This document shows positions 1,268-27,424 of a stretch of 32,196 nucleotides of DNA, piece by piece (position 1 is the first letter of the stretch; each line of letters begins with the position of its first letter). The notes beneath the pieces were generated by a model. The model saw only the letters and a list, made by a program, of their open reading frames with translations. It was not told the origin of the DNA and ran no database searches. Both the position numbers and the translations under genes were made by a program. Source of the stretch: Candidatus Omnitrophota bacterium (lineage in GTDB: Bacteria > Omnitrophota > Gorgyraeia > Zapsychrales > JAHFFX01); assembly GCA_023247755.1 (NCBI GenBank), contig JAHFFX010000008.1, forward strand, positions 1-32,196, written 5' to 3'.

Positions 1268-1289
1268 GAAGGCAATAACCAAAGGCGAT

Positions 1290-2291: not shown

Positions 2292-2326
2292 ATGATGACA
2301 CCGTGAATTAACCGGACGGAACGCTC

Positions 2327-9015: not shown

Positions 9016-10484
9016 GCAAAGAACGCCAGATCCAAAACAGTTTTATCTACCTGATCCCCACGCTGGTAGATAACCTGCTCCCGTTCCTGACCCTGCCCAT
9101 CTTTTCGCGGATCCTTCTGCCGTCGGATTACGGTCTTTTGGCCTTGGTGCAGGTGTTTGCCACCTTCGGGTGCGGATTGTCGAACCTGGCCTTGCTGGGG
9201 GTGTATGACCGAAGTTACTTTCAGTACCGGCATGATGCCCGGCAGTCGGTGCAGCTGTTGTTCTCCGTGACCGGACTGGTCGTCGTCAATTCTCTGGCGC
9301 TGCTGGCCATCACCTATTTGATCCAAAACCCCCTGTCGCGGCTTTTCACGCAATCGCCGCAGCATGGGGATCTCTTGCTCGCCGCGCTCGCGGCAGAGTG
9401 CGCGCTTTGCCTGCGACAGTATTATCTGTTCTTTTTCAAGAACCGGGAGGAGGCCAAGGTCTATGTGAAGAATTACCTGATCAGCAGCGGGCTGACGTTC
9501 GTTCTGTCGCTTCTCTTCGTGGGGGCCCTGCGGACCGGGATCATCGGGATCATTTACGGCCGGCTGATCGGCCACGGGGCGGCGCTGGTTTCGCTGCACC
9601 GCAGGGTGTTGCGCGTGGCTCCTTTTTCCTGGAGCCGGGCCATGGTGGGAGAATTGCTCAAGATCAGCCTTCCCCTGACCCCGCCGATCTTTTACAGTTC
9701 GATCTCCAAACAGTTCGATAAGTACATGCTGGGGCTGCTTTCGACGATCGACAGCGTCGGGGTCTATAGCATCGGCCAGAAGATGTCCTACATGATCTTT
9801 GTTTATATGACTTCGCTGCAGAACGTCTTTCAGCCGCAGGTGTACCAACGCATGTTCGAGCGGGAGAAGGCCGGGGAAGACGTGGGGAAATATCTCACCC
9901 CGTTCATCTACATTTCCATCTTCGTCGGTTTGCTGGTGTCGTTGTTCGCCGAGGAAGTGATCGGGCTGCTCACGCCGGTGGAGTATCACGGCGCCATTCC
10001 GGTGGTGATGATCCTCGCGATGTATTACGGGTTCCTCTTCTGGGGAAAGATCAACAGCGTCCAATTGCTGTATAAAAAGCGGACGGGGATCATGTCGTTA
10101 TTGACGTTCTTGACGATCGTTCTGAACATACTTCTGGGGATCCCCATGATCAGATATTGGGGAGCCCAGGGGGCCGCCTGGAGCATGCTCATCGTCGGCG
10201 TTCTTAGCGGAGGGGTGGCCAATGTCGTCGCCCAGAAGAGCTATCTTATTCGTTGGGAGAACGGCAAGGTCTTCGCCATCTATGCGGTGTTCTTCGGGGC
10301 TTCGCTGGTGATGGTCCTTTTTTGGAATCTCCACGTTAACCCCGTCCTCCGGGCGGTCGCCAAATTAGCCGGTCTTGCCGTGTACTTGGCCTTGGGAGTG
10401 CAATGGCACATCGTTAAGAAGAAGAACTTTGATCTGGTCTTGAGCGTTCTCCGTCTGAAGGCGCTGGCCAAGGCCGCGCCCTGA
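9012..10484 (+). CDS. wzx: Oligosaccharide flippase (Wzx-type, MOP superfamily)
   Basis: 490 aa polytopic protein; N-terminal NSFIYLIPTLVDNLLPFLTLPIFSRILLPSDYGLLAL typical of polysaccharide exporters. Confidence 0.9.
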   Translation: MSKERQIQNSFIYLIPTLVDNLLPFLTLPIFSRILLPSDYGLLALVQVFATFGCGLSNLALLGVYDRSYFQYRHDARQSVQLLFSVTGLVVVNSLALLAITYLIQNPLSRLFTQSPQHGDLLLAALAAECALCLRQYYLFFFKNREEAKVYVKNYLISSGLTFVLSLLFVGALRTGIIGIIYGRLIGHGAALVSLHRRVLRVAPFSWSRAMVGELLKISLPLTPPIFYSSISKQFDKYMLGLLSTIDSVGVYSIGQKMSYMIFVYMTSLQNVFQPQVYQRMFEREKAGEDVGKYLTPFIYISIFVGLLVSLFAEEVIGLLTPVEYHGAIPVVMILAMYYGFLFWGKINSVQLLYKKRTGIMSLLTFLTIVLNILLGIPMIRYWGAQGAAWSMLIVGVLSGGVANVVAQKSYLIRWENGKVFAIYAVFFGASLVMVLFWNLHVNPVLRAVAKLAGLAVYLALGVQWHIVKKKNFDLVLSVLRLKALAKAAP

Positions 10485-10523
10485 TCGACCGTCGGCTTCG
10501 GCGGCGTTCCTTCTCCGAACTCA

Positions 10524-12356
10524 ATGAAAGCTATGCGAAAGAATGTCATTTTCATAGATCAGGAAGCGGCGTTAAAGCGGCAGTTGCTGTCCTTGGCTAA
10601 TACCGCCGGCCCGAGAAGGCGGTATGTGCTCCTGAGCGAACCGCAGCCGAAACTCGAGCGCGGGCTTGCGGACGCCGGGTTTGTCGGGGCACAGACGCCG
10701 GAACTCCTTAAGGATCCGCGGCGATTCGTTCAGGCGTACATCGACGTCATCGGCCTGCTGGGGCGACAACAGAATAAACTGGAATGGTGGGCGACCGACA
10801 TCGCATCCAAGAACCGGTTCAATACGAAGCTGCCCGAATTATTGGAACAATTTCTGAAGGCCGCCGACGCGATCGCTCGGGAATCCGCTGATTGTCTCTT
10901 GGTCGTAGGCGCGCCCTGGCCCTTGCGGTCTTCTTTGGAAAAACTCGCCAGCCTTGGGGCCGGCGCGGGTTTACAAATTCAACGGGCCCTTCAGCGGCTG
11001 GGGTTGTGGGTCCGCGGATTCTGCCGGCGGGTCATTGTTGTGGTCTATCACGCGTTCCTGACCTGGCGTAAGGGACGTCTGGCCCGGCGCTGTCTCACAA
11101 CGAAGGTGCAGGCGCTCGACCGAAGCCGGCGCTGGTACGTCGTTAAAACCTTTTTCTACGACCATTCATTCACGAAAGCGGGGCAATACCAGGACGCTTT
11201 TTTCGGCCCGCTGCCGGATTTTCTCAAGAACCGCAAGAACGTCCTGATCGTCGGGACCGTTCTGGGGGATTTCGGGACCTGTCTTAAAGGGATCAGCGCC
11301 GGTCAGGGCACCACCCCGATCGTCCCGATCGAATATTTCATCGGATTGAAAGATCTGATAGCCGCCTGCCTGCGATTGATATTGTTCCGGGCCAGGGTCC
11401 AGGGGCCGGTCGATTTTGCCGGTTATGACGTGGGCGAAGTCGTTTCGCAGGAATTATTGAGGAGTTTCTTTAAGGTCCAGCCCTATCAGTATTTTCATTA
11501 CGCGGGCGCGGCGCGGCTCGCCCAAACCTTCCCGGTAGAGACTTTCCTGATGACTTACGAGAATAATCCTTGGGAAAAGATGTGCACCGCGGCCTTCCGG
11601 CGGTTTTCTCCTTCGACCGTTGTCCTCGGTTATCAGCATACGGTCGTTCCGCAATCCTCCGCCAATATGTTCGCGAGTGAAAGAGAAGCGAACACCGTCC
11701 CCGATGTCGACCGGATCATCACCGTCGGAGAAATTCCAAAGGAGATCATCGGGCGGTATCGGACCAGCGACAAGGTGATCGTTTCGGAAGGCTGCGCTCT
11801 GCGCTATGAATACTTGAAAGATCAGCCCGCGGCGGCCCCCGGCCGAGGCGGACGCATTCTGGTCGTGCTGGAAGGCATTTATGACGTTTACCGCATGGTC
11901 AATTATGTCCTGGAACAATTGAAAGAAGAAGCCGCCTGGGAGGTGGTCATCCGGACCCATCCGGTCCTGCCGTTAGAGAGGATCCGTTCCCAGTTGCGGG
12001 TGGACCCCAACAGCCTGGCGCACGTGAAGATCTCCAGGAATCTCCAGGTCAAGGCCGATATCGAGTGGGCGGACATCGTTATCTATTGGGGAACGACCGT
12101 GGCCTTGGAAGCCTTGAGCCTGGGCAAGCCCCTGATCCATTTTGATATGGGGGGCGTCCTCAGCTATGATCCGTTGTTCGAATGCCCGCACCTTAAGTGG
12201 AAGGTCACACCCAACGATTCCTTGCCCCAGCGGATCCGCGAGATCTTCGCCTTGCCGCGGGAAGAATTTTGCCGGCAACAGGCGCAGGCCAAGGCCTATA
12301 TGGAACGCTATTTTCATCCCGTTTCCGAGGCCGGTCTGGCGAAGTTCCTGGGCTGA
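10524..12356 (+). CDS. Surface carbohydrate biosynthesis protein, GT-B-like (possibly related to the TIGR04326/LIC_13510-type family)
   Basis: VLGYQHTVVP, WEVVIRTHPV, ADIVIYWGTTVALEALSLGKPLIHFD read as a GT-B C-terminal domain; family assignment is by eye and tentative. Confidence 0.6.
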   Translation: MKAMRKNVIFIDQEAALKRQLLSLANTAGPRRRYVLLSEPQPKLERGLADAGFVGAQTPELLKDPRRFVQAYIDVIGLLGRQQNKLEWWATDIASKNRFNTKLPELLEQFLKAADAIARESADCLLVVGAPWPLRSSLEKLASLGAGAGLQIQRALQRLGLWVRGFCRRVIVVVYHAFLTWRKGRLARRCLTTKVQALDRSRRWYVVKTFFYDHSFTKAGQYQDAFFGPLPDFLKNRKNVLIVGTVLGDFGTCLKGISAGQGTTPIVPIEYFIGLKDLIAACLRLILFRARVQGPVDFAGYDVGEVVSQELLRSFFKVQPYQYFHYAGAARLAQTFPVETFLMTYENNPWEKMCTAAFRRFSPSTVVLGYQHTVVPQSSANMFASEREANTVPDVDRIITVGEIPKEIIGRYRTSDKVIVSEGCALRYEYLKDQPAAAPGRGGRILVVLEGIYDVYRMVNYVLEQLKEEAAWEVVIRTHPVLPLERIRSQLRVDPNSLAHVKISRNLQVKADIEWADIVIYWGTTVALEALSLGKPLIHFDMGGVLSYDPLFECPHLKWKVTPNDSLPQRIREIFALPREEFCRQQAQAKAYMERYFHPVSEAGLAKFLG

Positions 12357-12385
12357 CCCGGCCAGCCCGCGGGCAAGCCCAACAA

Positions 12386-12414
12386 TTGATTATTCAAGGC
12401 GATTCTGGTACAAT
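12386..12414 (+). promoter_or_regulatory. Candidate sigma70 promoter with extended -10
   Basis: TTGATT (12386-12391), 17-bp spacer, TACAAT (12409-12414) preceded by TGg (12406-12408); about 60 bp upstream of ATG 12474. Confidence 0.6.
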
Positions 12415-12473
12415 AAAAACCAATTTTTCCAGAAGGAATCTTGGTCTCTATCAAGGAGTTAGGGAATCTTTCT

Positions 12474-13529
12474 ATGTCATCTGCCGCTAAAAAGTACCGC
12501 TGTGGGATCATCGGATACGGTTACATGGGCAAGATCCGCCAGGCCGTGATCGAACGCCATCCGCAATTGGAGCTGGCCGGTATCTTGGATCCCGAGGAAC
12601 AAGCGAAACCCCAGTCCGGAGACGCGCGTTTCTTTTCTTCCTTCGATGAACTTATCCGGCAGGTCGATATCGTTTTTGTCTGCACCCCCAACAGCTTTTC
12701 CCCCGATTTTTGCGTCCGCAGCCTGAATGCGGGCAAGCATGTCTTTTGCGAGAAACCTCCGGGCCGCAACCTCAGCGATATCCGCAGGATACGTGAGGCG
12801 GAAACCGGCGAGGTGAAGCTCATGTTCGGGTTCAATCACCGTTTCCATCCCGGCATTCTCAAGGCCAAGTCCCTGGTGGCCGGCGGCCGCATGGGGAACA
12901 TCATCACGTTGCGCGGCGTTTACGGAAAATCCGGCGGGAAGAACTTCCAGAAATCCTGGCGCAACGACAAGGCGATCTCGGGCGGCGGGATCCTCCTCGA
13001 TCAGGGGATCCATATGCTGGACCTTTTTTGCCATTTTTGCGGCGACTTTGAAAACGTGAAATGTTTTGCCAACAACACTTACTGGAAATTTGACCTCGAG
13101 GACAACGCCGTCGTCATTCTGCAGAACAAGGCGACCCAGATCGCCTGCTGCACGTCCTCGGCGACCTTATGGAAGCACACGTTCTTTCTGCACCTGACGC
13201 TGGAAGAAGGGTACCTCGTCGTCGAAGGGCTGCTTTCCAAGACCGGCAGTTATGGCCGGGAGAAGCTGATCGTCGGCAAGCGGCAATTCGAGGATGAGGC
13301 CGACGCCCTGGGCAATCCTTCGGAAGAGGTGACCTATTTCGACCGGGACCTTTCCTGGGACCTGGAGGTGGAGGAGTTCGTCAAGTGCATCGAGGAGAAC
13401 CGCAAGGTCACCCTCAGTTCTTCCGCGGACGCGCTCAAGGTGATGGAGATCATCGAACGGGCTTATGCGGATGCGGGTTTAAGCGCCCAAGAAGGGAATT
13501 ATAATGAAGAACATTGTCGTATTCGATGA
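12474..13529 (+). CDS. Gfo/Idh/MocA-family oxidoreductase
   Basis: CGIIGYGYMGKIR Rossmann motif, HVFCEKPPGRN (EKP), SGGGILLDQGIHMLDL. ATG 12474 preferred over 12441. Confidence 0.92.
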   Translation: MSSAAKKYRCGIIGYGYMGKIRQAVIERHPQLELAGILDPEEQAKPQSGDARFFSSFDELIRQVDIVFVCTPNSFSPDFCVRSLNAGKHVFCEKPPGRNLSDIRRIREAETGEVKLMFGFNHRFHPGILKAKSLVAGGRMGNIITLRGVYGKSGGKNFQKSWRNDKAISGGGILLDQGIHMLDLFCHFCGDFENVKCFANNTYWKFDLEDNAVVILQNKATQIACCTSSATLWKHTFFLHLTLEEGYLVVEGLLSKTGSYGREKLIVGKRQFEDEADALGNPSEEVTYFDRDLSWDLEVEEFVKCIEENRKVTLSSSADALKVMEIIERAYADAGLSAQEGNYNEEHCRIR

Positions 13530-14520
13530 GTATCAAGAGGGCGACCTCAAGCCCTCGGGGCTTTTGCACAAGTATATCGAGCTGACCGGGATCGACGTCG
13601 AGAAGTATTTTCTGAAAGCCCAGAAACTTGAGGCCTGCAGCTGCCCGGCGTGTTTCCATTCCCGCAGCGCCGCCGCCTTCGGGAAGTTCGGGCTCGGTTA
13701 TCAGGAATGCGGCGCCTGTCACACGTTATTTGTTTCGCCGCGCCCGAGCGACCACGCTTTGAACGAATTCTATCGCAGCGCTCCCTCGCGGATCTTCTGG
13801 CGCGAGGAACTGTCCCGCGCCACCAGCCAAAAGCGCAACGAGAAGATCGTCCAGCCCCGCTTTCAGTGGATCCTCGATTCCACCCGGGAGTATCATCCCC
13901 GCGCCCGGCACCTGGCGGACATCAACACGAATCAATTCGCTTATATCGAAGAGATCGCCCGCGTCGAGGATTTCGACCAGAAGACCCTGGTGTCGCCTTT
14001 CCTGGGGCCGGCGGAGCTTAAGACGCTGCGGGGGGTGGAGATCGTCCCGGGACCGTGGTGGGAGGCGGGACTGAAGAACGTCGTGGACGTCGTTACGCTG
14101 TTCGAGGTCGCGGACCACACGGCGGATCCGGAGGCGCTGTTCAAAAAGGTACGCGAGATGCTCAAGCCCGGCGGCCTGGTTTTCATGACGGCCATCGTCG
14201 CTTCGGGATTTGACGTCCAGGTGCTTTGGGAAAAAGCGGAGAACCTGTACCCGCCGGACCGGCTGAATGTTTTTACCGTCGATGGCTTGAAGATCCTGTT
14301 CGAGAGGCTTGGCTTTGAGTGCCTTGAATTGAGCACGCCCGGGGTCCTGGATGTTGACATCGTCCTGAAGGCCCTCAAGGAGAACCCCGGGATCCCGCTG
14401 CCGCGTTTCGTGCGCGGCCTGCTCGAGCATAAAGATCCCGAGATCAAACGGGCCTTTCAGGAGTTCTTGCAGACGGGCCTGATGAGTTCTTACAGCCGGA
14501 TCATTCTTAGGAAGAAATAA
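13504..14520 (+). CDS. Zinc-ribbon plus SAM-methyltransferase-like protein with degenerate motif I
   Basis: CSCPACFHS...YQECGACHTLFVSPRP zinc ribbon; DVVTLFEVADHTADPEALFKKVREMLKPGGLVFM methyltransferase core. Confidence 0.75.
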   Translation: MKNIVVFDEYQEGDLKPSGLLHKYIELTGIDVEKYFLKAQKLEACSCPACFHSRSAAAFGKFGLGYQECGACHTLFVSPRPSDHALNEFYRSAPSRIFWREELSRATSQKRNEKIVQPRFQWILDSTREYHPRARHLADINTNQFAYIEEIARVEDFDQKTLVSPFLGPAELKTLRGVEIVPGPWWEAGLKNVVDVVTLFEVADHTADPEALFKKVREMLKPGGLVFMTAIVASGFDVQVLWEKAENLYPPDRLNVFTVDGLKILFERLGFECLELSTPGVLDVDIVLKALKENPGIPLPRFVRGLLEHKDPEIKRAFQEFLQTGLMSSYSRIILRKK

Positions 14521-14549
14521 GCCAACGAAGAAAAAGAAAGAGGAATGTC

Positions 14550-15170
14550 ATGTCGCATGTGGAGCAATATATCCGGGATGCCATCACGATCCTGGAAGGG
14601 ATGGACCCTTTACCGATCGACAAGATCGTGAAGCTGCTTTTGGAGATCCGTGAGAAGAAGGGACGGTTGTTCTTTCTGGGGGTGGGCGGCAGCGCCGGCA
14701 ACTGTTCGCACGCCGTCAATGATTTCCGCAAGATCGGCGGTTTCGAAGCGTACACTCCGGTGGACAATGTCTCGGAGCTCACGGCGCGCACCAACGATGA
14801 AGGCTGGGAAACGGTATTCGCCGGATGGCTCAAGACTTCGGGGTTGAACGAGAAGGACGGCGTGTTCGTTTTTTCGGTGGGGGGAGGCAGCAAGGAAAAG
14901 AACATCAGCGCCAATCTGGTGTACGCACTGGAATACGCCCGGCAGCAAAAGGCGAAGATTTTCGGAGTGGTGGGCCGCGACGGTGGATTTACCGCCAAGG
15001 TGGCGGATGTCTGCGTCATCGTTCCGCCGGTAAATCCGGCGACGGTCACGCCGCACGCGGAAAGTTTTGCGGTCCTGGTCTGGCACCTGATCGTTTCCGA
15101 CCCCCGGATCATGCAAATGCGCAACAAGTGGGAATCCACCGAGGCGAAGCAAGCGGCGACTAAAGTTTAA
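14550..15170 (+). CDS. SIS-domain phosphosugar isomerase (GmhA-like)
   Basis: LFFLGVGGSAGNCSHAVNDFRKI, FSVGGGSKEKNIS, TPHAESFAVLVWHLI. Confidence 0.85.
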   Translation: MSHVEQYIRDAITILEGMDPLPIDKIVKLLLEIREKKGRLFFLGVGGSAGNCSHAVNDFRKIGGFEAYTPVDNVSELTARTNDEGWETVFAGWLKTSGLNEKDGVFVFSVGGGSKEKNISANLVYALEYARQQKAKIFGVVGRDGGFTAKVADVCVIVPPVNPATVTPHAESFAVLVWHLIVSDPRIMQMRNKWESTEAKQAATKV

Positions 15171-15199
15171 GCGAACTTGAAATCAATTTGGAGAGACCT

Positions 15200-15922
15200 A
15201 TGGCAATTTTTTTGGACACCGGCAAGATCAGCGACATCGAAAAATATCTCAAGATGGGCATTATCCGCGGAGTGACGACCAACCCCACCATCCTTTTGAA
15301 AGAAGGGATCACCGGCGGCATGAAAGGCATCAAGGACCGCACGATCAAGATCGCGGAGTTGATCGACCCCTATCCTTTGTCCGTCGAGGTGACGACCAAC
15401 GACCGGGAAGGGATGTTCCGGCAGGCCAAGGACATCGCCCGCTGGGCCAAGAACATCGTCGTCAAGATCACGATCCACGGCCCGAAAGGGGAACTCGACA
15501 ACCTGGAAGTGGTCCACGAACTGGAAACCAAGCACGATATCCGCATCAACGTGACGGCCATGATGAGCGCCCAGCAATGTTTCCTGGCGGCCATGGCCGG
15601 AGCGTCCTACGTTTCCCTGCTGGGCGGTCGCGTCAATAACATGGGTTACAACGTGATCGAGGACATCAAGTGCCTGCGCTCTCTGTTGGATACCTACAAA
15701 CTCAAGGCGCAGATCATCCTGGCCTCGACCCGCGAAGTGCTCAACGTCATCGAATGGCTGCGCGCCGGGGCGCATATCGTGACCGTTGTCCCGTCCTTCC
15801 TGGATGGAATGATCATCCATCCTTATTCCAAGGAAACGGTCCAGATGTTCTTGGATGATGCGGCCCGGGGGGAGATCAAGGCAGAGCCGCTGGCCGTGGC
15901 CCGGAAAAAGGGGAAAGCATGA
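15200..15922 (+). CDS. Transaldolase / fructose-6-phosphate aldolase-like protein
   Basis: MAIFLDTGKISDIEKYL...GVTTNPTILLKEG; candidate Schiff-base Lys in NIVVKITIHG; NVTAMMSAQQCFLAAMAGASYVSLLGGRV. ATG 15200 has ggagag upstream. Confidence 0.88.
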   Translation: MAIFLDTGKISDIEKYLKMGIIRGVTTNPTILLKEGITGGMKGIKDRTIKIAELIDPYPLSVEVTTNDREGMFRQAKDIARWAKNIVVKITIHGPKGELDNLEVVHELETKHDIRINVTAMMSAQQCFLAAMAGASYVSLLGGRVNNMGYNVIEDIKCLRSLLDTYKLKAQIILASTREVLNVIEWLRAGAHIVTVVPSFLDGMIIHPYSKETVQMFLDDAARGEIKAEPLAVARKKGKA

Positions 15923-16710
15923 AGGACCTTATTTCCCGGCGTCTGGCCTTGCGTACGAAGTTCAAAAGGAATCAGCGGATCTTCGGGGCGTGGACATCCT
16001 TCGCCCATCCTTCGATCAGCGAGATCTTCGCCGGCGCCGGCGTCGATTTCGTCGGCATCGACATCGAACACAGCACGATCAGCCAGGAACAATCCCAGCG
16101 CATCATCGCCGCCTGTCAGGCGAGCCGCACGCCGTGCCTGCCGCGGGTCGCTTCCCACAACATGGAAATGATCAAGCGGCTCCTTGATTCCGGGGCGGAC
16201 GGCATCATCGTGCCGATGGTCAATAATCTTTCCGAGGCCGAGGAGATCGTCTCCTGGGTCAAGTATTCCCCCGTCGGTAAACGCAGTTTCGGGGTGGCGA
16301 GGGCCCAGGGCTACGGCAAGAATTTCGATGAATATACCCGCAGTTGGAACAGGTCCTCAACGCTCATTATCCAGATCGAGTCGATGGAAGGGGTGGAGAA
16401 CATCGAACAGATCCTTTCCCTTGCCGAGATCGACGGTGTGATGGTGGGGCCGTATGACCTTTCCGGTTCGTTGCGCATTCCGGGCCAGCTGGACCACCCG
16501 AAGGTGAAGGCGGCGTGTCAGCGGGTCATCAAGGCGTGTACCGCGCTGGGGAAATCCTGCGGCACCCAGCTCATCGAGCCCGACGAGCCGGGCATCCGCC
16601 GGGCCTTCAATTCGGGATTCAACTTTGTGGTGCTGGCCTCCGATGTGTTCATTCTTTGGAAATGGGCCGAGCGGATGCAAAACAACATCAAGCGTTTCAG
16701 AAAAGCTTAG
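15919..16710 (+). CDS. HpcH/HpaI-family (class II pyruvate-type) aldolase
   Basis: FVGIDIEHST, ADGIIVPMVNNLSEAEEIV, IIQIESMEGVENIEQIL, VMVGPYDLSGSL align by eye with HpaI active-site motifs; ATGA overlap with 15200 gene. Confidence 0.9.
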   Translation: MKDLISRRLALRTKFKRNQRIFGAWTSFAHPSISEIFAGAGVDFVGIDIEHSTISQEQSQRIIAACQASRTPCLPRVASHNMEMIKRLLDSGADGIIVPMVNNLSEAEEIVSWVKYSPVGKRSFGVARAQGYGKNFDEYTRSWNRSSTLIIQIESMEGVENIEQILSLAEIDGVMVGPYDLSGSLRIPGQLDHPKVKAACQRVIKACTALGKSCGTQLIEPDEPGIRRAFNSGFNFVVLASDVFILWKWAERMQNNIKRFRKA

Positions 16711-16714
16711 CCCC

Positions 16715-17380
16715 ATGAGTTTCAAGGTCGTGGTTCTCGATTTTGATGGTGTCATCGTCGATTCCGTGGGCATCAAGGACGATGCCTTCCGGGCGCTTTT
16801 TGCGGACCGGCCGGATGAGCTCGATGCGATCATGTCTTATCATCGCGCCAACAACGCCACGATCCGTTTCGAAAAATTCAAATTTATCACCGAGAACATA
16901 CTGCGGCAGCCCTTCAGCGAAACGGCCCAAGAGAAGCTTAACGTGCGGTATTCGCAATTCGTCGTTGAGAAAATAATCGCTTGTCCGTTCATCGAGGGCG
17001 CGCCGGATTTTCTGGAACATTTTAGCAAGCGAAGTTCTCTGTACCTGGCTTCGATCAATCCCAAGGAGGAGCTGGCCGGGATCCTTAAGGCCAGGGAGCT
17101 CGGGAAATACTTCAAGTCGGTCTACGCGCATCCTTGGCCAAAGGCCGATGCCTTGCGCGACATCCTGCAGAAGGAGAATATAGCGGCCTGCGACGCGGTT
17201 TTTATCGGGGACAGTCCCGAAGATCATGCGGCGGCCGTTTCGGCCGGGATTCATTTTATCGGCCGGGATGACGGCAAGCGGTTTACGGGTCTTCCGGTCC
17301 GCTGCTATCAAAGCCTGAATGAAGTTCGAAAGCACATGGAAACGATCGTCTCCGAATCTTCTGCGGGAAAAATGCGATGA
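16715..17380 (+). CDS. HAD-superfamily hydrolase (phosphatase)
   Basis: VVLDFDGVIVDS motif I; DAVFIGDSPEDHAAAVSAG motif IV. Confidence 0.9.
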   Translation: MSFKVVVLDFDGVIVDSVGIKDDAFRALFADRPDELDAIMSYHRANNATIRFEKFKFITENILRQPFSETAQEKLNVRYSQFVVEKIIACPFIEGAPDFLEHFSKRSSLYLASINPKEELAGILKARELGKYFKSVYAHPWPKADALRDILQKENIAACDAVFIGDSPEDHAAAVSAGIHFIGRDDGKRFTGLPVRCYQSLNEVRKHMETIVSESSAGKMR

Positions 17381-18159
17381 ACGGATATCTCTCAAAAGTT
17401 TTCAGCCTCAAAGGCAAGGTCGCGGCAGTGATCGGCGGGGCGGGGCATCTGTGCAGCGAAATGGCCTTGGGGCTGGCCTCAGCCGGAGCTTCCGTCGCCA
17501 TTCTGGACCGCAATGAAGCACCGATGCGTTCCGTGGCGCGCGCGATCCATCGCAAGACCGCCGGCAAAGTGCTGACCTATACGTTCGATGCGTCCGAGAA
17601 AGCGGGCCATGAAGCGGCCCTGGATGCCGTGCTCAAGGACTTGCGGCACGTCGATATCCTTATCAATGGGGCCGGGATCAACGCCCCGACCCCGTTCTTT
17701 GACATTTCCGTTGATGAATGGCAGGCGATCCTGGACAGCCACATCACGGCGACGTTCCTCGCCTGCCAGGTCTTTGGCCGGCATATGGTGAAGCGCCGGC
17801 GGGGATCGATCATCAACCTGTCTTCCGCATCTTCCGGCCCGCCGTTATCCAAGGCGTTCACCTATTCGGTGGCCAAGGCCGGCGTCAAGAACCTGACCCA
17901 GAACCTCGCGCGGGAATGGGCGCCCTATAATGTGCGGGTCAATGCCTTGCGCCCCGGATTCTTCCCGACGGCGTGGAGCATGAAGAATTTCATCGATAAG
18001 AAAAGGGAGCGGGCGATCCTGGGCCATACGCCGATGGGGCGATACGGCCGGCCGGAGGAATTGGTGGGCGCCGTATTGTGGCTCTCCTCGGATTCGGCCA
18101 GTTTTGTCACCGGTTCCGAGATCGCCGTCGATGGCGGGTTTACGTGTATGACAATTTAG
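17377..18159 (+). CDS. SDR-family oxidoreductase (gluconate 5-dehydrogenase / mannonate oxidoreductase-like)
   Basis: AAVIGGAGHLCSEMA, INGAGIN, YSVAK, VNALRPGFFPT, FVTGSEIAVDGGF; ATGA overlap with HAD gene. Confidence 0.88.
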   Translation: MNGYLSKVFSLKGKVAAVIGGAGHLCSEMALGLASAGASVAILDRNEAPMRSVARAIHRKTAGKVLTYTFDASEKAGHEAALDAVLKDLRHVDILINGAGINAPTPFFDISVDEWQAILDSHITATFLACQVFGRHMVKRRRGSIINLSSASSGPPLSKAFTYSVAKAGVKNLTQNLAREWAPYNVRVNALRPGFFPTAWSMKNFIDKKRERAILGHTPMGRYGRPEELVGAVLWLSSDSASFVTGSEIAVDGGFTCMTI

Positions 18160-18186
18160 TGTCAAGTGTCAGGTGTTAAGTGTCAA
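18159..18186 (+). repeat. Four degenerate heptamers GTGTCAA-GTGTCAG-GTGTTAA-GTGTCAA, inverted relative to the array at 18220-18282
   Basis: Direct reading; unit 3 is the exact reverse complement of TTAACAC; the first unit begins on the last base of the SDR stop codon. Confidence 0.9.
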
Positions 18187-18219
18187 GAGCGTTCCGGTAG
18201 CTCATGACAAAAGTTTTTC

Positions 18220-18282
18220 TTAACACTTAACACTTAACACTTAACACTTAACACTTAACACTTAACACTTAACACTTAACAC
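18220..18282 (+). repeat. Tandem array of nine perfect TTAACAC heptamers
   Basis: Direct count of nine identical contiguous units; array ends 3 nt before ATG 18286. Confidence 0.97.
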
Positions 18283-18285
18283 CCT

Positions 18286-19044
18286 ATGGCCTCTATCCGA
18301 AAAACAGTGATCATCGTCGGCGCAACCGAAGGCCTCGGCGCCGCCATCGCCCGCGTTTTTTATGCGCAAGGCAACACGGTCATCATCGCGGCTCGCAAGG
18401 ACAACGGCTTCGCGAAGAAATTGGGGAAGCGGGCGTTCTTTGCCCACGCCGATGCCCGCCAGGAAGCGGACCATAAATCGCTCGCGGAACTGGCCCGTCG
18501 CAAGACCGGCCGGTTGGATGTTTACATCAATTGCGCCGGTTTTTCCTTGTGGTCGCCTCTGTCCGAAGTGGACGAACTCTTCTTTCAGGAAATGATCGAC
18601 ACCAATTTGAAGGGGACCTTTTGGGGCTGCAAGACGGCGGCGGGCCTGCTGCGCCGCGGCGGGTGCATCATCAATGTGGCCAGTCTCGCCGGAAAAAGGG
18701 GCAGCGCCAACAATTCCGTTTACTGCGCCTCCAAATTCGGGGTCATCGGTCTTACCCAGGCCCTGGCCAAGGAACTGGGTCCGCGAGGGATCAGGGTGAA
18801 TGCCGTTTGTCCCGTTTATGTGGAAACCCCGGGCTTAAAGCGGGCGCTCGCGCAAAAGCACGCCCCGCCGCAGGGGAAAAGCGTGAGCGAATACTTGAAG
18901 AATTTCAGCAACCAGCAAAGCGCTCTGGGAAGATTGCCCACGGCCGATGAGGTCGCGCAGGTCTGCGTTTTCCTGGCATCGGACGCCGCTTCGGCGATCA
19001 CCGGCCAGTCGCTCAATGTGGATTGCGGCGTGCTTCCTTCTTAG
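18286..19044 (+). CDS. SDR-family oxidoreductase
   Basis: VIIVGATEGLGAAIA, INCAGFS, INVASLAG, YCASK, AITGQSLNVDCG. Confidence 0.88.
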   Translation: MASIRKTVIIVGATEGLGAAIARVFYAQGNTVIIAARKDNGFAKKLGKRAFFAHADARQEADHKSLAELARRKTGRLDVYINCAGFSLWSPLSEVDELFFQEMIDTNLKGTFWGCKTAAGLLRRGGCIINVASLAGKRGSANNSVYCASKFGVIGLTQALAKELGPRGIRVNAVCPVYVETPGLKRALAQKHAPPQGKSVSEYLKNFSNQQSALGRLPTADEVAQVCVFLASDAASAITGQSLNVDCGVLPS

Positions 19045-19128
19045 GAATCCCAATCCGTCGTACGTGTCACGTGACCCGTGCCCCGGATCACAATTTTGTG
19101 GAACGTAAGACATACCGTAGAAAGAATC

Positions 19129-19914
19129 ATGAAAAAAATCAAGCAGCATGAAAAAATCGTCGCCATTATCCCGGCGCGCATGGCGGCTTCCCGGTTCCCG
19201 GGCAAGCCCTTGGCAAAGATCCTGGACCTGCCGATGATCGAACATGTCCGTCGGCGCGTGGCGCTGTGCGAGATCCTCAGCGACGTGTATGTCGCGACCT
19301 GTGACCAGGAAATTATGGAGGAAGTACAAAAGCACGGCGGCAAGGCGGTCATGACCGCCAATACCCACGAGCGCTGCACCGACCGGGTGGAGGAGGCGGC
19401 GCGTTCCATCGACGCGGACATCGTGGTCATCGTGCAAGGCGATGAGCCGCTGTTCGTGGCGCGGACCATCGAAGCACTCGTTGCCCCCATGCTGCGGGAT
19501 GAAACGATCCCCTGCACGAACATCCTTTCTCCGATCACGAAGGAATCCGACCAGCAGGACATCAATATCATCAAGACGGTGCTCAACAAAGATCAGGACG
19601 TGCTTTATTTTTCCCGCTCGCCGATCCCTTTCCTGCGGGTCAAGTCCGATGCGCCCTTGTATCGTCAGACCGGTCTTTCGGCTTTCACGAAACCATTTTT
19701 GCGGCAGTTCGCTAAGCTTGCGCCGACCCCGCTCGAAGTGGCGGAATCGATCGATTTCCTGCGGATCCTGGAACACGGGTTTACGGTGCGCGGCGTCATT
19801 TATGATCAACCTACGATCGGAGTGGACCGGCCACCCGACGTCGCCAAGATCGAAAAGGCCATCAAAGAAACCCCGCAGCACTGGGATATTTATCAAACCA
19901 TTCTGAGAACATGA
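19129..19914 (+). CDS. KdsB-family cytidylyltransferase (CMP-ulosonate synthetase-like)
   Basis: IVAIIPARMAASRFPGKPLAKI, VIVQGDEPLF, VLYFSRSPIPF, PLEVAESIDFLRILEHG, IGVDRPPDVAKIEKAI parallel KdsB. ATG 19129 preferred over 19078. Confidence 0.85.
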   Translation: MKKIKQHEKIVAIIPARMAASRFPGKPLAKILDLPMIEHVRRRVALCEILSDVYVATCDQEIMEEVQKHGGKAVMTANTHERCTDRVEEAARSIDADIVVIVQGDEPLFVARTIEALVAPMLRDETIPCTNILSPITKESDQQDINIIKTVLNKDQDVLYFSRSPIPFLRVKSDAPLYRQTGLSAFTKPFLRQFAKLAPTPLEVAESIDFLRILEHGFTVRGVIYDQPTIGVDRPPDVAKIEKAIKETPQHWDIYQTILRT

Positions 19915-20831
19915 AAAAACTTTTTGTGGCCTTATCAACCTTCGGCGAATACGGGTCCGAACCCATTGAGTTGCTCAGATCGAGCGGCCTGGATTTCTCC
20001 GTCAACCCAACGGGCAAACGCCTCACCCCCGAGCAGATCGTTGAACTGGCCGCGGATTGCGAGGGCATCATTGCCGGCGTCGAGCCTTATAACGCTCCGG
20101 TCCTGGAACGATTGCCGCAATTGCGCTGCATCAGCCGTTGCGGCGCGGGCATCGACAATGTCGACCAGCAGAAGGCGAAAGAAATGGGAGTGGCGATCCT
20201 CAACACTCCCGATGTGGTCATTCGACCGGTGGCGGAGCTGACGGTGGCCATGATCCTCGATCTCATGCGGAATTTAAGCGTCCATGCGCAACTCATGAAG
20301 AACAGGTCCTGGCAGAAGCAGGGCGGGCATTTGCTGTCCGGGAAACACGTCGGCATCATCGGGTTCGGCCGCATCGGCCAGAAGGTCGCGCAGCTTTTGA
20401 AACCTTTTGACGTCAAGATCGGTTACTTCGATCTGCGGCAGGTCTGGATCATGATCTCGAACCGGTTCGAAGATCTGAACTCGCTTCTGGAATGGGCCGA
20501 CATCATTACCGTGCATGCCTCCATCGGGGCCCAGGGAAAACCCTTGCTGGGACGCGATGAACTGCGCCGGATGAAACCCGGCAGCTGGATCGTCAACACC
20601 GCGCGCGGCGGTCTCGTCGATGAGGACGCTTTATATGAGGCTTTAAAGAGCGGCCATTTGGCCGGGGCGGCCTTGGATGTTTTTCTTGAGGAACCTTACA
20701 CGGGAAAATTATGCGAACTGGATAACGTCGTGCTCACGCCGCATGTGGCGACGCTCACCGGGGAATCGCGTCTGGCCATGGAGATCGAGGCCAGTGAGAA
20801 TATCATCCGTTTCTTCAAGAATGGACGCTGA
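19911..20831 (+). CDS. D-isomer-specific 2-hydroxyacid dehydrogenase (phosphoglycerate dehydrogenase-like)
   Basis: HVGIIGFGRIGQKVAQ, NTARGGLVDEDAL, DVFLEEPYTG, LTPHVA; Arg/Glu/His catalytic positions readable. Confidence 0.9.
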   Translation: MKKLFVALSTFGEYGSEPIELLRSSGLDFSVNPTGKRLTPEQIVELAADCEGIIAGVEPYNAPVLERLPQLRCISRCGAGIDNVDQQKAKEMGVAILNTPDVVIRPVAELTVAMILDLMRNLSVHAQLMKNRSWQKQGGHLLSGKHVGIIGFGRIGQKVAQLLKPFDVKIGYFDLRQVWIMISNRFEDLNSLLEWADIITVHASIGAQGKPLLGRDELRRMKPGSWIVNTARGGLVDEDALYEALKSGHLAGAALDVFLEEPYTGKLCELDNVVLTPHVATLTGESRLAMEIEASENIIRFFKNGR

Positions 20832-21757: not shown

Positions 21758-22360
21758 ATGAAGATCTTGAGATTGATCGGTGCGGAGATAGCGGAGTGGT
21801 TCGGGCAGGTGTTGATCTGGATGCCGGGCCGGATCGGTTACCGTTTGCGCAGCGCGGTCTACCGTCGGTGTTTGGCCCGTTGCGGCAGAGGGGTCGTGAT
21901 TTCCCCCGGTTGCTTCCTGCGGGATAAAAAGAACATCAGTCTGGGCGATCACGTCACCATGGGGTCGCAGGCGCAGGTGTACGCCGCCGGGACGGGAAAA
22001 GAGCGCATTGAGATCGCCGATCACGTGCATTTTAATTCCAACGTCATGGTGAATGCCGACATGGGGGGCGAGATCTTCATCGGCCGGGATGTCATCATCG
22101 GGCCGAACGTCGTTCTGCGGGCCAGCGACCACCGGTTTTCCGATCCCCGGGTGCCGGTGCGCACGCAAGGCCACGCGGCCGGGACCATTCGGATCGGGGA
22201 TGATGTGTGGATCGGCGCGAATGTTGTGGTCTTGCCTGACGTTAACATCGGCCGGGGAGCGGTTGTCGCCGCGGGGGCGGTTGTTACTAAAAGCGTCTCG
22301 GATTACACGATCGTCGGCGGGGTGCCGGCCCGGGAGATCGGCAAAAGGGGCCGTTCATAA
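21758..22360 (+). CDS. Left-handed beta-helix O-acyl/acetyltransferase
   Basis: Hexapeptide-like repeats ([72 protein letters not shown]). Confidence 0.88.
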
Positions 22361-22385
22361 TTCTTTTAGCGAAGTCGGAGAGGAC

Positions 22386-24251
22386 ATGCGGATATTGGGT
22401 GTGAATTTCGGCCATTCGGCCGCGGCGGTGTTGCTGGTGGATGGGAAGCTCGTGGCCGCCATCGAGGAAGAGAAACTTTCCCGGATCAAGGGTGCCGCGA
22501 CGTTCCCGCATCGCGCCATTGCTTTCGTTCTGCAAAAGGGCGGGCTCTTGCCGGCGCAGGTCGACCGGGTGGCCGTCGGCTGTGAACGCATCATGGAGTT
22601 CGCGTACGGTTACCGCAACCTTAATAAATATTTCTCTAGAACTTCGCCCCTTGATAAATTCCGAGGGGTTTTTTATGACGGCCTGAAAAGGGTGTTCCCT
22701 CGCGCGGATATTACCGGCGCGCTGGAAGGATTGTTCTATGAATCGCTGGGAGCCATGGGGTTTCCCCGTTCCAAGGTCAGCTTGGTCAATCATCACCTGG
22801 CCCACGCCGCCAGCGCCTATTACGCCTCTCCCTGGAAGGAGGCCTTGATCTTCACCAGCGACGGAAAAGGAGATGGTCTCTGCGGCGGCTGTTATGTCGG
22901 GCGGGGAGGAACGCTGCGCTGTGTCGATACGATCGAGGACCGCAATTCGCTGGGGCAATTCTACCAGTCGGTGACGAAATTCCTTGGTTACAAGGTCAAC
23001 CGGCATGAGGGCAAGATCACCGGACTGGCCGCCTTCGGGGATTCGGACAAGACCTTCGCCCTTATGAACAGCCTCTTGCGTTTCGACGGCGGCAGGTTTC
23101 ACAACACCTTTCATGATATTAAAGAGTTCCGCAAGGACCCGCTGGGCTATTTTCAGCGGAAGGTCGACCGCCAGGGGTTCATTCACCTTAATTACGTCAA
23201 GTCGCTGCACGGGACACTCATCGATTATGCCGTCGCCTACCAGATGTATCTCAACTTCATGGAGGATTCCATGAAGGCCTTTGAGCCCAAGGACATGGCG
23301 GCCGGGATCCAGAAGCTGGCCGAGGAGGCGACGGTCGCGTATGCGAAAGAACAGCTCAAAAGGAATCCCTGTCCCGTCATTTGTCTCGCCGGGGGCGTTT
23401 TCGCCAACGTCAAGATCAATCAGCGGGTGCGCGAAATCCCCGGGGTGAAGAATATTTTTGTCCAGCCGGCGATGGACGACGCGGGGACGGCGTTGGGCGC
23501 GGCGCTGATCGTTGCGATGAAATCGTCGGGCGGAAAACCGTGGCAGCCGCCGGCCACCGTCTATCTGGGGCCGTCGTTCACCGATCAACAGATCGAAGCG
23601 AGCCTCAAGAGATATGGTTTGAAATACCGCCGGGTCGACGACTACGAGGAAGTGTTGGGCAAGCTGATCTATGAAGGCAAGGTGATCGGCCGATTCAACG
23701 GCGGGCTGGAATGGGGGCCGCGCGCCCTGGGAAACCGTTCCATCATCGCGCGGCCCATCAAAAAGGACATCAATGACATCCTCAACGAACGCCTGCGCCG
23801 CACCGAGTTCATGCCGTTCGCGCCTTCGATGCTCGCGGAGGATGCCCCCGAATTTCTGGAAGATTATGCGCCCGAGCACGCCGCGGCGAAATATATGACC
23901 ATCACCTACAATGTCAAGAAGGAGCGGATCGACCAGATCCAGGCGGCGGTCCACGTCGACGGTACCGCGCGTCCGCAGGTTGTCTTTAAGGAGGACAACC
24001 CGTCTTTTTACAACATCATCAAATCTTATAAGAAATATTCCGGCTTCGGGGTCGTGATCAATACCAGTTTCAATATGCACGAGGAACCGATCGTTTCTTC
24101 TCCCGACGATGCCATCCGTTCCTTTCTGATCGGCGCCGTCGATGTGCTGAGCCTGGGCGCTTATATCGTGGAAGAGCGGCCAACGGGCAATCCGGAGAGG
24201 GTGGAGCTGAACTACCTCAACGAGGAGAGCAAGCAGGGAGCTTTGATCTGA
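22386..24251 (+). CDS. NodU/CmcH-family carbamoyltransferase
   Basis: MRILGVNFGHSAAAVLLVDGKLVAAIEEEKLSRIKG, NHHLAHAASAYYASPW, CLAGGVFANVKINQ, GGLEWGPRALGNRSIIARP. ORF-track start 22053 lies inside the upstream gene. Confidence 0.93.
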   Translation: MRILGVNFGHSAAAVLLVDGKLVAAIEEEKLSRIKGAATFPHRAIAFVLQKGGLLPAQVDRVAVGCERIMEFAYGYRNLNKYFSRTSPLDKFRGVFYDGLKRVFPRADITGALEGLFYESLGAMGFPRSKVSLVNHHLAHAASAYYASPWKEALIFTSDGKGDGLCGGCYVGRGGTLRCVDTIEDRNSLGQFYQSVTKFLGYKVNRHEGKITGLAAFGDSDKTFALMNSLLRFDGGRFHNTFHDIKEFRKDPLGYFQRKVDRQGFIHLNYVKSLHGTLIDYAVAYQMYLNFMEDSMKAFEPKDMAAGIQKLAEEATVAYAKEQLKRNPCPVICLAGGVFANVKINQRVREIPGVKNIFVQPAMDDAGTALGAALIVAMKSSGGKPWQPPATVYLGPSFTDQQIEASLKRYGLKYRRVDDYEEVLGKLIYEGKVIGRFNGGLEWGPRALGNRSIIARPIKKDINDILNERLRRTEFMPFAPSMLAEDAPEFLEDYAPEHAAAKYMTITYNVKKERIDQIQAAVHVDGTARPQVVFKEDNPSFYNIIKSYKKYSGFGVVINTSFNMHEEPIVSSPDDAIRSFLIGAVDVLSLGAYIVEERPTGNPERVELNYLNEESKQGALI

Positions 24252-25408: not shown

Positions 25409-27424
25409 ATGTTCCTGGTTCAGAAAAAATATAATGAGCTGCCCTGGATCGAGCTGGTGATCGTCAGCTCGATCGCATTGTTCTCGATCGGGTATGTGAC
25501 CCTCATATCGGATTTTGCCGAACAGCACATGACCTTCAGCTTCCTGAATTTTCCGATCTTCATCGGGGAAATTCTCCTGTTCGCCTGTCTGGTCATGTCC
25601 CTGGTTCTGGTCAAGCGTGGAACGATTGCGATTGAAAGATGGCATTACGGGCTGCTGATCTATATCCTTTGGCTTCTGGCGAAGGTGCTCTGGGGCTATT
25701 ACACCTTCGGGCCGCTCGCGTTTCGGAACGCGGCGCTCTTTTACTATCCGCTTTTTGCCGTCTTTTCCTACTATTCTTTCCAGCGTCTCGTCTTTGGCCA
25801 GAGAACCTTGACGGTCTTATTCTTCCCGCTGGCGCTCCTTGCGGGGGCGAACAAGGTCAACGATTATTATCTATGGGGCTACCTGGCGATCTTATTCCTG
25901 ATATCGTTCTATTCCGGACAACGCTGGATCCGCCGGGGCGGGTTCGCCCTGATCTTATGGCAATTGTATGCGCACCACTTCCTTCTGGTGGGCAGCCGAT
26001 CCCATATGGTAGGCCAGCTTGCAACGATCCTGTTCCTGACATTCTTTCTGGGGGCGATCTTCATCCCTCAACGGGCCAGTCGGTGGCTCGGGCCCTTGAT
26101 CGGGCTGGGGGTCCTGGGCATCCTGGCGCTGGGACTATGGAAATGGTCCGACGCCAATGCGGTCAAATCCATGCTCAATATCGCGAAACTCCGGGATAGA
26201 TACGCGGAATTTGATGCGGAGATCGAACAGAAGCGGGCTGATTTCAAAAGTGAGGAGCTCCATGCACAGCTCTATCACAGCAACACCTTGGGCGCGGACG
26301 GGATCAGCGCTGACAAAATCGAGGCCTTCCGAAAAGCCCTCGCGGATCAGATCGTCGTGGAATTGGTCGATTATTCGGATCAAGTGTCCCTGCATACGCG
26401 GATGACCTTTGCAAGAGATATTCAGTCCATCCTCGCGCAGGCCGAAACGGCCATCGAGGAACGCCAAAAGGAACTTTTAGGGCAAGCGAAGGCTTCCGTT
26501 GAACGCTTCGCCCAGGCGACACTGGCCGATACCTCCAGCCTTTTGCTGAATATCGATAAAGTGGACATGAAGGATTTTAAGGTTGACCTGCGCCGCAAAG
26601 GGGATCTGGCGCTGGCCAATTTCAAGGAAACGCTGAAAAGCGGAACGGTGCCGGAGTTCCCGGTCCCTGCCGAGCCCGTCAAGATGTCCGCCTACGCCCG
26701 TCAGGTCATGCTGGGCCGGGAAGCCGTGGCCAAACCGACGGCCCTTCAGGCCCAGGCTTGGATCAAGATCAATATGGATGACCTTGTTTCGGCGGCCTCG
26801 CAGAACGCTCAGCAGGCCGTTTCGAAGTTCAAAAGCGATGAAGCGGGCAAATCTTTCTCTCGGCAGGTCCAATTCGATGAATCCCTCAAGCCGAGGAATT
26901 ACCGGAATCTGGAGAATATCAGCACTCTGGTGAGCTTTCGTTCTCTGGAAACAGCGGAGAATAATATATTCTTCCGGATATTTATCTGGCGGGACATGAT
27001 CCGGGAGATGCTGGAGGAGAGGGCTTTATTAGGGATGAATTTTGGAAAACCTCAGCGTTCTATTTCACTGGAGATCCTGGGCTGGGCGGCGATCGAATGG
27101 CGCCGCGACGGCTGGATAACCCCGCATAATTCCTATTTGGATCTGATTTACCGGTCGGGGATCATCGGGGTGCTCTTGGTATTGGCTTTGATCGTTTTAT
27201 TTGTTCATTTGGTCCGGGTTTTCCTCGTCACCCGCTCTTGGGAGGGGGGATTGCTGATGAGTGCCATCCTTTACTGGATGGTGATCGCCAATTTTCTCGT
27301 TTTTCTGGAATTACCCTATAATGCGATTCCCTTCTGGAGTTTTTTGGGGGCCACCGTGGCTTTTGCGAATCGCAAACGGGCGGAAAGACGGCCAGGGAAG
27401 AAAGAACCGGTATATCACTTATGA
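25409..27424 (+). CDS. Wzy/WaaL-like O-antigen polymerase/ligase with long hydrophilic insertion
   Basis: Polytopic N-terminus, FFRIFIWRDMIREMLEERALLGMNFGKP and PHNSYLDLIYRSGIIGVLLV Wzy_C-like motifs; about 260 aa charged segment in between; RBS aaggagag. Confidence 0.8.
   Translation: MFLVQKKYNELPWIELVIVSSIALFSIGYVTLISDFAEQHMTFSFLNFPIFIGEILLFACLVMSLVLVKRGTIAIERWHYGLLIYILWLLAKVLWGYYTFGPLAFRNAALFYYPLFAVFSYYSFQRLVFGQRTLTVLFFPLALLAGANKVNDYYLWGYLAILFLISFYSGQRWIRRGGFALILWQLYAHHFLLVGSRSHMVGQLATILFLTFFLGAIFIPQRASRWLGPLIGLGVLGILALGLWKWSDANAVKSMLNIAKLRDRYAEFDAEIEQKRADFKSEELHAQLYHSNTLGADGISADKIEAFRKALADQIVVELVDYSDQVSLHTRMTFARDIQSILAQAETAIEERQKELLGQAKASVERFAQATLADTSSLLLNIDKVDMKDFKVDLRRKGDLALANFKETLKSGTVPEFPVPAEPVKMSAYARQVMLGREAVAKPTALQAQAWIKINMDDLVSAASQNAQQAVSKFKSDEAGKSFSRQVQFDESLKPRNYRNLENISTLVSFRSLETAENNIFFRIFIWRDMIREMLEERALLGMNFGKPQRSISLEILGWAAIEWRRDGWITPHNSYLDLIYRSGIIGVLLVLALIVLFVHLVRVFLVTRSWEGGLLMSAILYWMVIANFLVFLELPYNAIPFWSFLGATVAFANRKRAERRPGKKEPVYHL

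Follow-up and report, generated by a model that had tools for sequence, protein, structure and literature searches.

A putative pyruvate-aldolase-based cassette for a CMP-activated ulosonic acid other than Kdo, found in Omnitrophota and in distant bacteria and archaea

We describe a ten-gene cassette in a 32,196-nucleotide stretch of DNA (here, the window) from a Candidatus Omnitrophota bacterium, which lies on contig JAHFFX010000008.1 (C232 in our numbering) of a 2.4-Mb draft genome that is 91% complete. The cassette occupies positions 12474-20831, with all of its genes on the + strand, and we read it, from its gene content, as a horizontally spread pathway that is dedicated to a cytidine monophosphate (CMP)-activated 3-deoxy-2-ulosonic acid other than 3-deoxy-D-manno-oct-2-ulosonic acid (Kdo), a reading to which we assign a probability of roughly 0.55. 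The routes to such CMP sugars known so far depend on phosphoenolpyruvate (PEP)-dependent enzymes, either KdsA or those of the NeuB type. There is good support for the general claim of a CMP-activated ulosonic acid pathway centered on a pyruvate-type aldolase. The more specific claim, that the HpcH/HpaI aldolase simply replaces KdsA, is not established, because 36 related loci hold the same HpaI-SDR1-SDR2-KdsB core beside a variant KdsA.

The cassette and its distribution

Pfam and NCBIfam profile scans of the window give the gene order Gfo/Idh, methyltransferase-like, GmhA-like SIS, transaldolase, HpcH/HpaI, HAD, SDR1, SDR2, KdsB-like, and D-2-hydroxyacid dehydrogenase (2HADH). These genes are listed here together with the gene that precedes them.

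10524..12356, + strand: TIGR04326-like surface carbohydrate protein, predicted GT-B-type glycosyltransferase (NCBIfam TIGR04326, 54 bits; cut-off, 250)
12474..13529, + strand: Gfo/Idh/MocA oxidoreductase (PF01408, PF22725)
13504..14520, + strand: methyltransferase-fold protein MT1 (PF13489, C-terminal part only)
14550..15170, + strand: GmhA-like SIS-domain sugar phosphate isomerase (best NCBIfam match TIGR00441 GmhA, 52.5 bits, under cut-off)
15188..15922, + strand: transaldolase-family aldolase TAL (PF00923; probable ATG start at 15200)
15919..16710, + strand: HpcH/HpaI class II pyruvate-type aldolase (PF03328)
16715..17380, + strand: HAD-family phosphatase (PF00702, PF13419)
17377..18159, + strand: SDR1, like D-mannonate oxidoreductase, gluconate 5-dehydrogenase, and KduD (best NCBIfam match NF006132, 235 bits; cut-off, 281)
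18286..19044, + strand: SDR2 (PF13561)
19129..19914, + strand: KdsB-family CMP-ulosonate synthetase with an altered sugar site (PF02348; NF009905, 278.7 bits; cut-off, 255)
19911..20831, + strand: D-2-hydroxyacid dehydrogenase 2HADH, PGDH-like, its start overlapping the end of kdsB (PF02826, PF00389)

Every enzyme family that a first-pass annotation of this DNA had named (SIS, transaldolase-like, HpcH/HpaI, HAD, two SDRs, Gfo/Idh, and KdsB) was recovered on the + strand by the Pfam and NCBIfam profiles, and two cassette genes were missing from its list, namely, the methyltransferase-like gene (13504-14520) and the D-2-hydroxyacid dehydrogenase gene (19911-20831). The “strong promoter candidate” of that annotation did not hold up: the region has 5 promoter-like sites versus 4.4 ± 2.2 in shuffles, which is the chance level, and the best match near the cassette (TTGATT-17-TACAAT, 12386-12414) agrees at 9/12 positions. 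The largest gap in the cassette, between SDR1 and SDR2, holds a perfect (CTTAACA)x9 tandem repeat (18219-18282) flanked by an imperfect 7-mer array (18158-18187).

The first-pass annotation had set co-conservation of the aldolases with KdsB as a test of its proposal, and this link is borne out across phyla. When 84,980 species genomes were scanned with HpaI only, 80 loci were obtained, and a KdsB homologue is found in 62 of them; of the 61 loci flanked by 5 kb or more on each side, 52 have one. Chance does not account for this grouping of genes. Direct adjacencies among the 80 loci are most frequent for SDR2-KdsB (45), SDR1-SDR2 (40), HpaI-SDR1 (40), and KdsAc-CBS (33, a pair belonging to the KdsA-containing loci discussed below), followed by KdsB-2HADH (24), Gfo-MT1 (24), MT1-SIS (19), and SIS-TAL (14). 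The TIGR04326-like gene immediately precedes Gfo in 14 loci and immediately follows KdsB in 10. In locus L049, a very long open reading frame (ORF) containing SDR1 turned out to be a stretch of N.

A second survey, seeded with the SIS protein and covering 384 genomes of the phylum, showed that this isomerase belongs to a distinct family (44 to 81% identity) that is clearly apart from generic SIS proteins. Its neighborhoods are of two kinds: type A, with the recurring order Gfo-MT1-SIS-TAL-HpaI-HAD-SDR1-SDR2-KdsB-2HADH, and type B, in which SIS and transaldolase occur with nucleoside diphosphate (NDP)-sugar genes.

The bacterial hosts of the loci include Omnitrophota, Chloroflexota, Alpha-, Gamma-, and Deltaproteobacteria, Bdellovibrionota, Bacteroidota, Nitrospirota, Spirochaetota, and Cyanobacteria, and archaea are also among the hosts of the 80 HpaI loci. 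One cultured organism, Kiloniella laminariae, has a type A locus. Phyla are intermixed within well-supported groups of the HpaI and KdsB trees, which indicates transfer. The matches listed in a plasmid search with HpaI contained no cassette, only generic relatives at <38% identity; the same search with SIS returned Rhizobium and Lawsonia loci lacking HpaI and KdsB. In the open-access literature searched (subscription journals were outside its coverage), we found neither a pathway described as having these genes nor a paper joining HpcH, transaldolase, cytidylyltransferase, and O-antigen.

Two archaeal metagenome-assembled genomes (MAGs) lend support to an ulosonate built by the aldolase: a Methanomicrobiaceae MAG (G384) with a type A locus and a Hadarchaeum MAG (G385) with an HpaI-KdsB locus. 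The G384 contig also carries topoisomerase VI subunits and other genes judged by eye to be of archaeal type, which makes it improbable that the contig is bacterial contamination. A search for KdsA (PF00793) gave no match in G384 or G385 and gave matches in 11 of 14 controls, although such MAGs may be incomplete.

Enzymes of the cassette and the proposed route

The KdsB-family protein carries the clearest clue to the product. In Aquifex KdsB, D95 and D219 bind Mg-A (PMC3149649). The corresponding metal Asp residues are kept in the window protein (D105 and D233), and the catalytic Lys and the first Asp are kept throughout the cassette KdsBs; the second Asp is Asn in 27/27 aligned KdsBs from the KdsA-containing loci (type C) and in 10/22 from type A. 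The sugar site tells a different story. Solved KdsBs and the genome's own second KdsB share the motif (K/R)HxGxYAYR, and the window protein has RQTGLSAFT in place of KHxGIYAYR. We infer by sequence comparison that the His of this motif contacts Kdo. It is kept in 0 of the 62 cassette KdsB homologues, being replaced by Q, I, V, S, or L, and because of this replacement in every cassette KdsB the substrate, and hence the product, is probably not Kdo. Thus, the “Kdo-like” product proposed earlier is better taken to be a different ulosonic acid. The window KdsB scores just under the TIGR00466 cut-off (153.6 versus 155.2).

The active-site residues of HpaI, the transaldolase, the HAD protein, and both SDRs are likewise intact. 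In HpaI, H51 and R76 (catalytic) and E154 and D180 (metal) are conserved in 80/80 homologues, including those of type C, and we therefore regard the protein as probably a live aldolase in all of these loci. The Schiff-base Lys93 of the transaldolase and an Asn are conserved in 23/23 homologues; its best solved-structure match is the transaldolase 3s0c, and it falls under the TalC/FSA equivalog cut-off (150 versus 245.95 bits). Every solved-structure match of the SIS protein is a phosphoheptose isomerase. The DxD motif of the HAD protein is conserved in 26/26 homologues, and YxxxK is conserved in SDR1 (59/59) and SDR2 (53/53).

The genome context separates the cassette from the PEP-dependent synthases. 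Neither KdsA nor NeuB is present in the window, in agreement with the first-pass annotation, and the genome's matches to PF00793 (contigs C122 and C192) and PF03102 (contigs C134 and C122) are on other contigs. On C192, KdsA adjoins the second KdsB, which has the Kdo-type motif; on C134, the NeuB genes are part of a separate cluster of the nonulosonate type, which has a cytidylyltransferase of its own. Both types of PEP synthase are outside the cassette cluster, each with a local partner. We considered whether the housekeeping KdsA might feed the cassette KdsB and judged this unlikely, because that KdsA adjoins its own canonical KdsB. A catabolic role for HpaI was likewise rejected as unlikely, as a profile search of the genome found the window protein to be its only HpcH/HpaI protein, and it lies among glycosyltransferases, a flippase, and polymerase-like genes.

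From the chemistry of these families, we propose the following steps and their order. The transaldolase would form a ketose phosphate (sedoheptulose 7-phosphate and an octulose phosphate are the probable candidates), which the GmhA-like SIS isomerase would convert to an aldose phosphate. HpcH/HpaI would then extend the open-chain aldehyde with pyruvate, and the 3-deoxy-2-ulosonate phosphate formed in this way would be C10 to C11 if the acceptor were a heptose or octose. After removal of the phosphate by the HAD protein, SDR1 and SDR2, together with Gfo/Idh and 2HADH, would set or invert hydroxyl centers, and the resemblance of SDR1 to sugar-acid C5 dehydrogenases makes C5 the likeliest center to change. 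Finally, the KdsB variant would make the CMP sugar, and the TIGR04326-like protein would transfer it to a polysaccharide. In its boldest form, the proposal is that aldol addition joins pyruvate to a heptose or octose phosphate supplied by the transaldolase, that a repurposed KdsB activates the resulting C10 to C11 3-deoxy-2-ulosonic acid, which would be of a new class, and that the cassette has passed between bacteria and archaea; we offer this form tentatively and consider it rather doubtful.

Two proteins at the edges of this route merit comment. The AlphaFold model of the TIGR04326-like protein (pLDDT 88) shows weak similarity to GT-B folds in its Foldseek matches (E ~1e-8, TM ~0.35 to 0.57), and a sequence search against solved structures gave nothing useful; the protein is a candidate GT-B-type transferase of the cassette product. 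MT1 lacks a recognizable glycine-rich S-adenosylmethionine motif I, as the window protein reads HLADINTNQ and no GxGxG occurs in 11 aligned members. The MT1 family has invariant SGFD, PPDRxN, and STPGxLD motifs, and for its model (pLDDT 81.5) the highest TMq among the matches listed is with the sugar enzyme MtmC (4rv9, 0.54). MT1 is thus a candidate for a sugar enzyme that has gone unrecognized or for a pseudo-methyltransferase.

KdsA-containing loci and competing explanations

Several observations weigh against the pathway as drawn above, and the main obstacle is a third architecture, type C, which lowers our confidence in it. A KdsA homologue is found in 36 of the 80 loci and SIS and/or TAL in 27, and the two never occur together (0/80). 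All 36 KdsA loci, and none of the SIS/TAL loci, also encode a separate CBS-domain protein, and the order is mostly KdsA-CBS-HpaI-SDR1-SDR2-KdsB, sometimes with KdsC. In such loci a PEP-type enzyme should make the ulosonate, which leaves the role of HpaI unexplained. Moreover, the type C HpaIs group in one clade (100/99) closely related to the window HpaI and its type A relatives, which makes a common activity of the two probable. In this respect the first-pass proposal of an aldolase-based pathway to a CMP-ulosonate survives in part: the aldolase-KdsB link holds, and a general replacement of KdsA by HpaI does not. Furthermore, the substrates cannot be read from family names, because SIS and HpaI fall under every NCBIfam equivalog cut-off (for HpaI, 154.8 bits for HpaI, 143.2 for GarL, and 128.1 for RhmA versus cut-offs of 368.8, 406.75, and 441), and the minimal scheme does not explain the roles of 2HADH, Gfo/Idh, and MT1. 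The archaeal genomes also count on this side to some degree: NeuB genes (PF03102) are present in both G384 and G385, and that of G384 is ~10 kb from KdsB on the same contig. A NeuB-type supply of the ulosonate is thus conceivable in these genomes, although the NeuB genes lie outside the cassette, near another cytidylyltransferase-like gene.

The KdsA of type C is itself a variant. Its motif is KDCRS, nearly invariant among the aligned type C proteins, versus KANRT in the canonical KdsA of the window's genome; the classical KdsA motif is KANRS. The variant still scores above the KDO8P synthase equivalog cut-offs and is therefore a KdsA relative, with an acceptor that is possibly altered. The variant and the stand-alone CBS protein occur in Prochlorococcus, SAR11, SAR116, Bacteroidota, and Devosia (e.g., L083, L114, and L129), and Prochlorococcus L114 and Devosia L119 may have no KdsA-type gene other than the variant.

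Type C loci lend themselves to an explanation in which HpaI tailors an ulosonate rather than building one. KdsA would supply the ulosonate (in type C the variant form, in type A the housekeeping one or else a different enzyme), HpaI would invert its C4 by cleaving and re-forming the C3-C4 bond or would add a second pyruvate, SDR1 and SDR2 would invert C5, and KdsB would activate a Kdo epimer or an extended form. The occurrence together of variant KdsA, CBS, HpaI, SDR1, SDR2, KdsB, and sometimes KdsC in type C, the sharing of HpaI, SDR1, and SDR2 by types A and C, and the loss of the Kdo-type His from all 62 cassette KdsBs are each consistent with this idea. However, housekeeping Kdo as the precursor would leave SIS and TAL, which are never found with KdsA, without a role, the archaeal MAGs G384 and G385 lack KdsA, and some HpaI-KdsB pairs (L145, L147, L148, and L152) have neither SDRs nor KdsA beside them. 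On balance, we think this explanation unlikely, though it deserves serious weight.

These pairs belong to a divergent group of five loci (the four above and L150), in which HpaI adjoins KdsB or is one gene away, without the cassette SDR1-SDR2 pair and without a nearby KdsA. In L143 and L146, HpaI, 2HADH, an epimerase, and HAD occur with a different CMP synthetase instead of KdsB; that of L146 was tested and is PseF-like. Thus, some HpaI-CMP-synthetase pairs, with either a KdsB or a PseF-like partner, have no KdsA or NeuB beside them.

It could also be argued that the locus makes two products: SIS, TAL, and HAD would yield an NDP- or CMP-sugar, and HpaI, the SDRs, and 2HADH a separate acyl- or lactyl-type substituent, with the ulosonate for KdsB coming from elsewhere in the cell. 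Such a division would fit the occurrence of SIS/TAL without HpaI in NDP-heptose-like clusters, the acyl-type genes (FkbH, KAS III, and MaoC/SDR) upstream in the same locus, and the other ulosonate synthases in the genome. Yet HpaI, SDR1, SDR2, and KdsB form the tightest block, with 40 to 45 direct adjacencies each, and in some loci HpaI and KdsB stand alone as a pair, and so we regard two products as improbable.

A last alternative concerns the aldol donor. HpcH/HpaI enzymes can accept hydroxypyruvate, and if 2HADH supplied it, the product would be a 3-hydroxy (Ko-like) ulosonic acid and not a 3-deoxy one. In 16 of the 80 loci, 2HADH is translationally coupled to KdsB, its start lying inside the last kdsB codons. 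A glycerate 2-kinase adjoins 2HADH in L150, where the stretch from 9989 to 17959 encodes HpaI-KdsB and then glycerate 2-kinase, a 2-hydroxyacid dehydrogenase, a xylose-isomerase-like TIM barrel, and two SDRs, a content that hints at glycerate or hydroxypyruvate being involved. Nonetheless, 2HADH is found in only 3 of the 36 type C loci, to which HpaI is common, and we consider this alternative very improbable.

The preferred reading remains that of a cassette dedicated to a 3-deoxy-2-ulosonic acid that is distinct from Kdo and activated with CMP. The cassette appears to be based on a pyruvate aldolase and widely spread, in Omnitrophota, marine proteobacteria, and an archaeal MAG, and it would lead to an acidic surface sugar that has not been described, with a sister version containing KdsA in Prochlorococcus and SAR11-related genomes. 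The differences among type A, type C, and the minimal HpaI-KdsB form are confined to defined blocks.

Neighboring genes and comparison with known pathways

Acyl-type genes upstream of the cassette (587-6308) encode KAS III, a MaoC-SDR fusion, a methyltransferase, and an FkbH domain, and they may provide the same glycan with an unusual acyl group; FkbH and MaoC-SDR homologues are also near the cassette in L082, L077, L106, and L131. A PFTS-motif polysaccharide biosynthesis protein (TIGR04417, 6803-8875) adjoins a Wzx-like flippase, a pair also seen near cassettes in L094 and L106. Downstream, a NodU-type carbamoyltransferase (22053-24251) suggests a carbamoylated sugar, and a LegB-type 4,6-dehydratase (TIGR04180, 475.7 versus a cut-off of 475) is followed by a sugar-1-phosphate nucleotidyltransferase (together, 27421-29122), as also occurs near cassettes in L060, L101, and L147.

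Among the known systems closest to the cassette is the Kdo pathway (KdsD, KdsA, KdsC, KdsB, and Kdo transferase), with which it shares an isomerase, chain extension to a 2-ulosonate, a HAD phosphatase, and CMP activation by a KdsB-family enzyme. In contrast to that pathway, the cassette has no KdsA but HpcH/HpaI and transaldolase instead, its KdsB motif is changed, and it adds two SDRs, Gfo/Idh, and 2HADH. The nonulosonic acid pathways (NeuB, PseI, or LegI with NeuA, PseF, or LegF) likewise yield a CMP-activated ulosonic acid for surface glycans; however, the cassette has neither a NeuB-type synthase nor amino-sugar steps, and the genome's NeuB cluster is on another contig.

The adjacent transaldolase and SIS genes (14550-15922) have their counterparts in systems that make a higher-carbon aldose phosphate. 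In the lincosamide pathway, LmbR is a transaldolase and LmbN is an isomerase (PMC12945683), and the octose module as a whole comprises these two, the phosphatase LmbK, the kinase LmbP, and the nucleotidyltransferase LmbO; the GDP-heptose pathway comprises GmhA, HddA, GmhB, and HddC. A type B locus on Lawsonia intracellularis plasmid 3 (L040, 11995-20346) encodes SIS, HAD, transaldolase, a nucleotide-sugar dehydrogenase, an SDR, Gfo/Idh, an HddA-like kinase, and an HddC/MurU-like nucleotidyltransferase and is likely a higher-carbon NDP-sugar cluster. This locus resembles the GDP-heptose and lincosamide octose pathways and suggests that SIS and TAL make a higher-carbon aldose phosphate. Unlike in those systems, the pair in the cassette would feed an HpaI/KdsB block and not a sugar kinase and NDP-sugar synthase: no GHMP kinase was found among the window ORFs scanned, and the nucleotidyltransferase at 28406 adjoins the LegB dehydratase and not the cassette. 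Finally, the cassette HpaI shares its family and catalytic residues with the class II pyruvate aldolases YfaU, GarL, and HpaI, but those enzymes cleave 2-keto-3-deoxy acids in catabolism, whereas the cassette protein, which scores below all equivalog cut-offs, is encoded in a biosynthetic surface-sugar locus.

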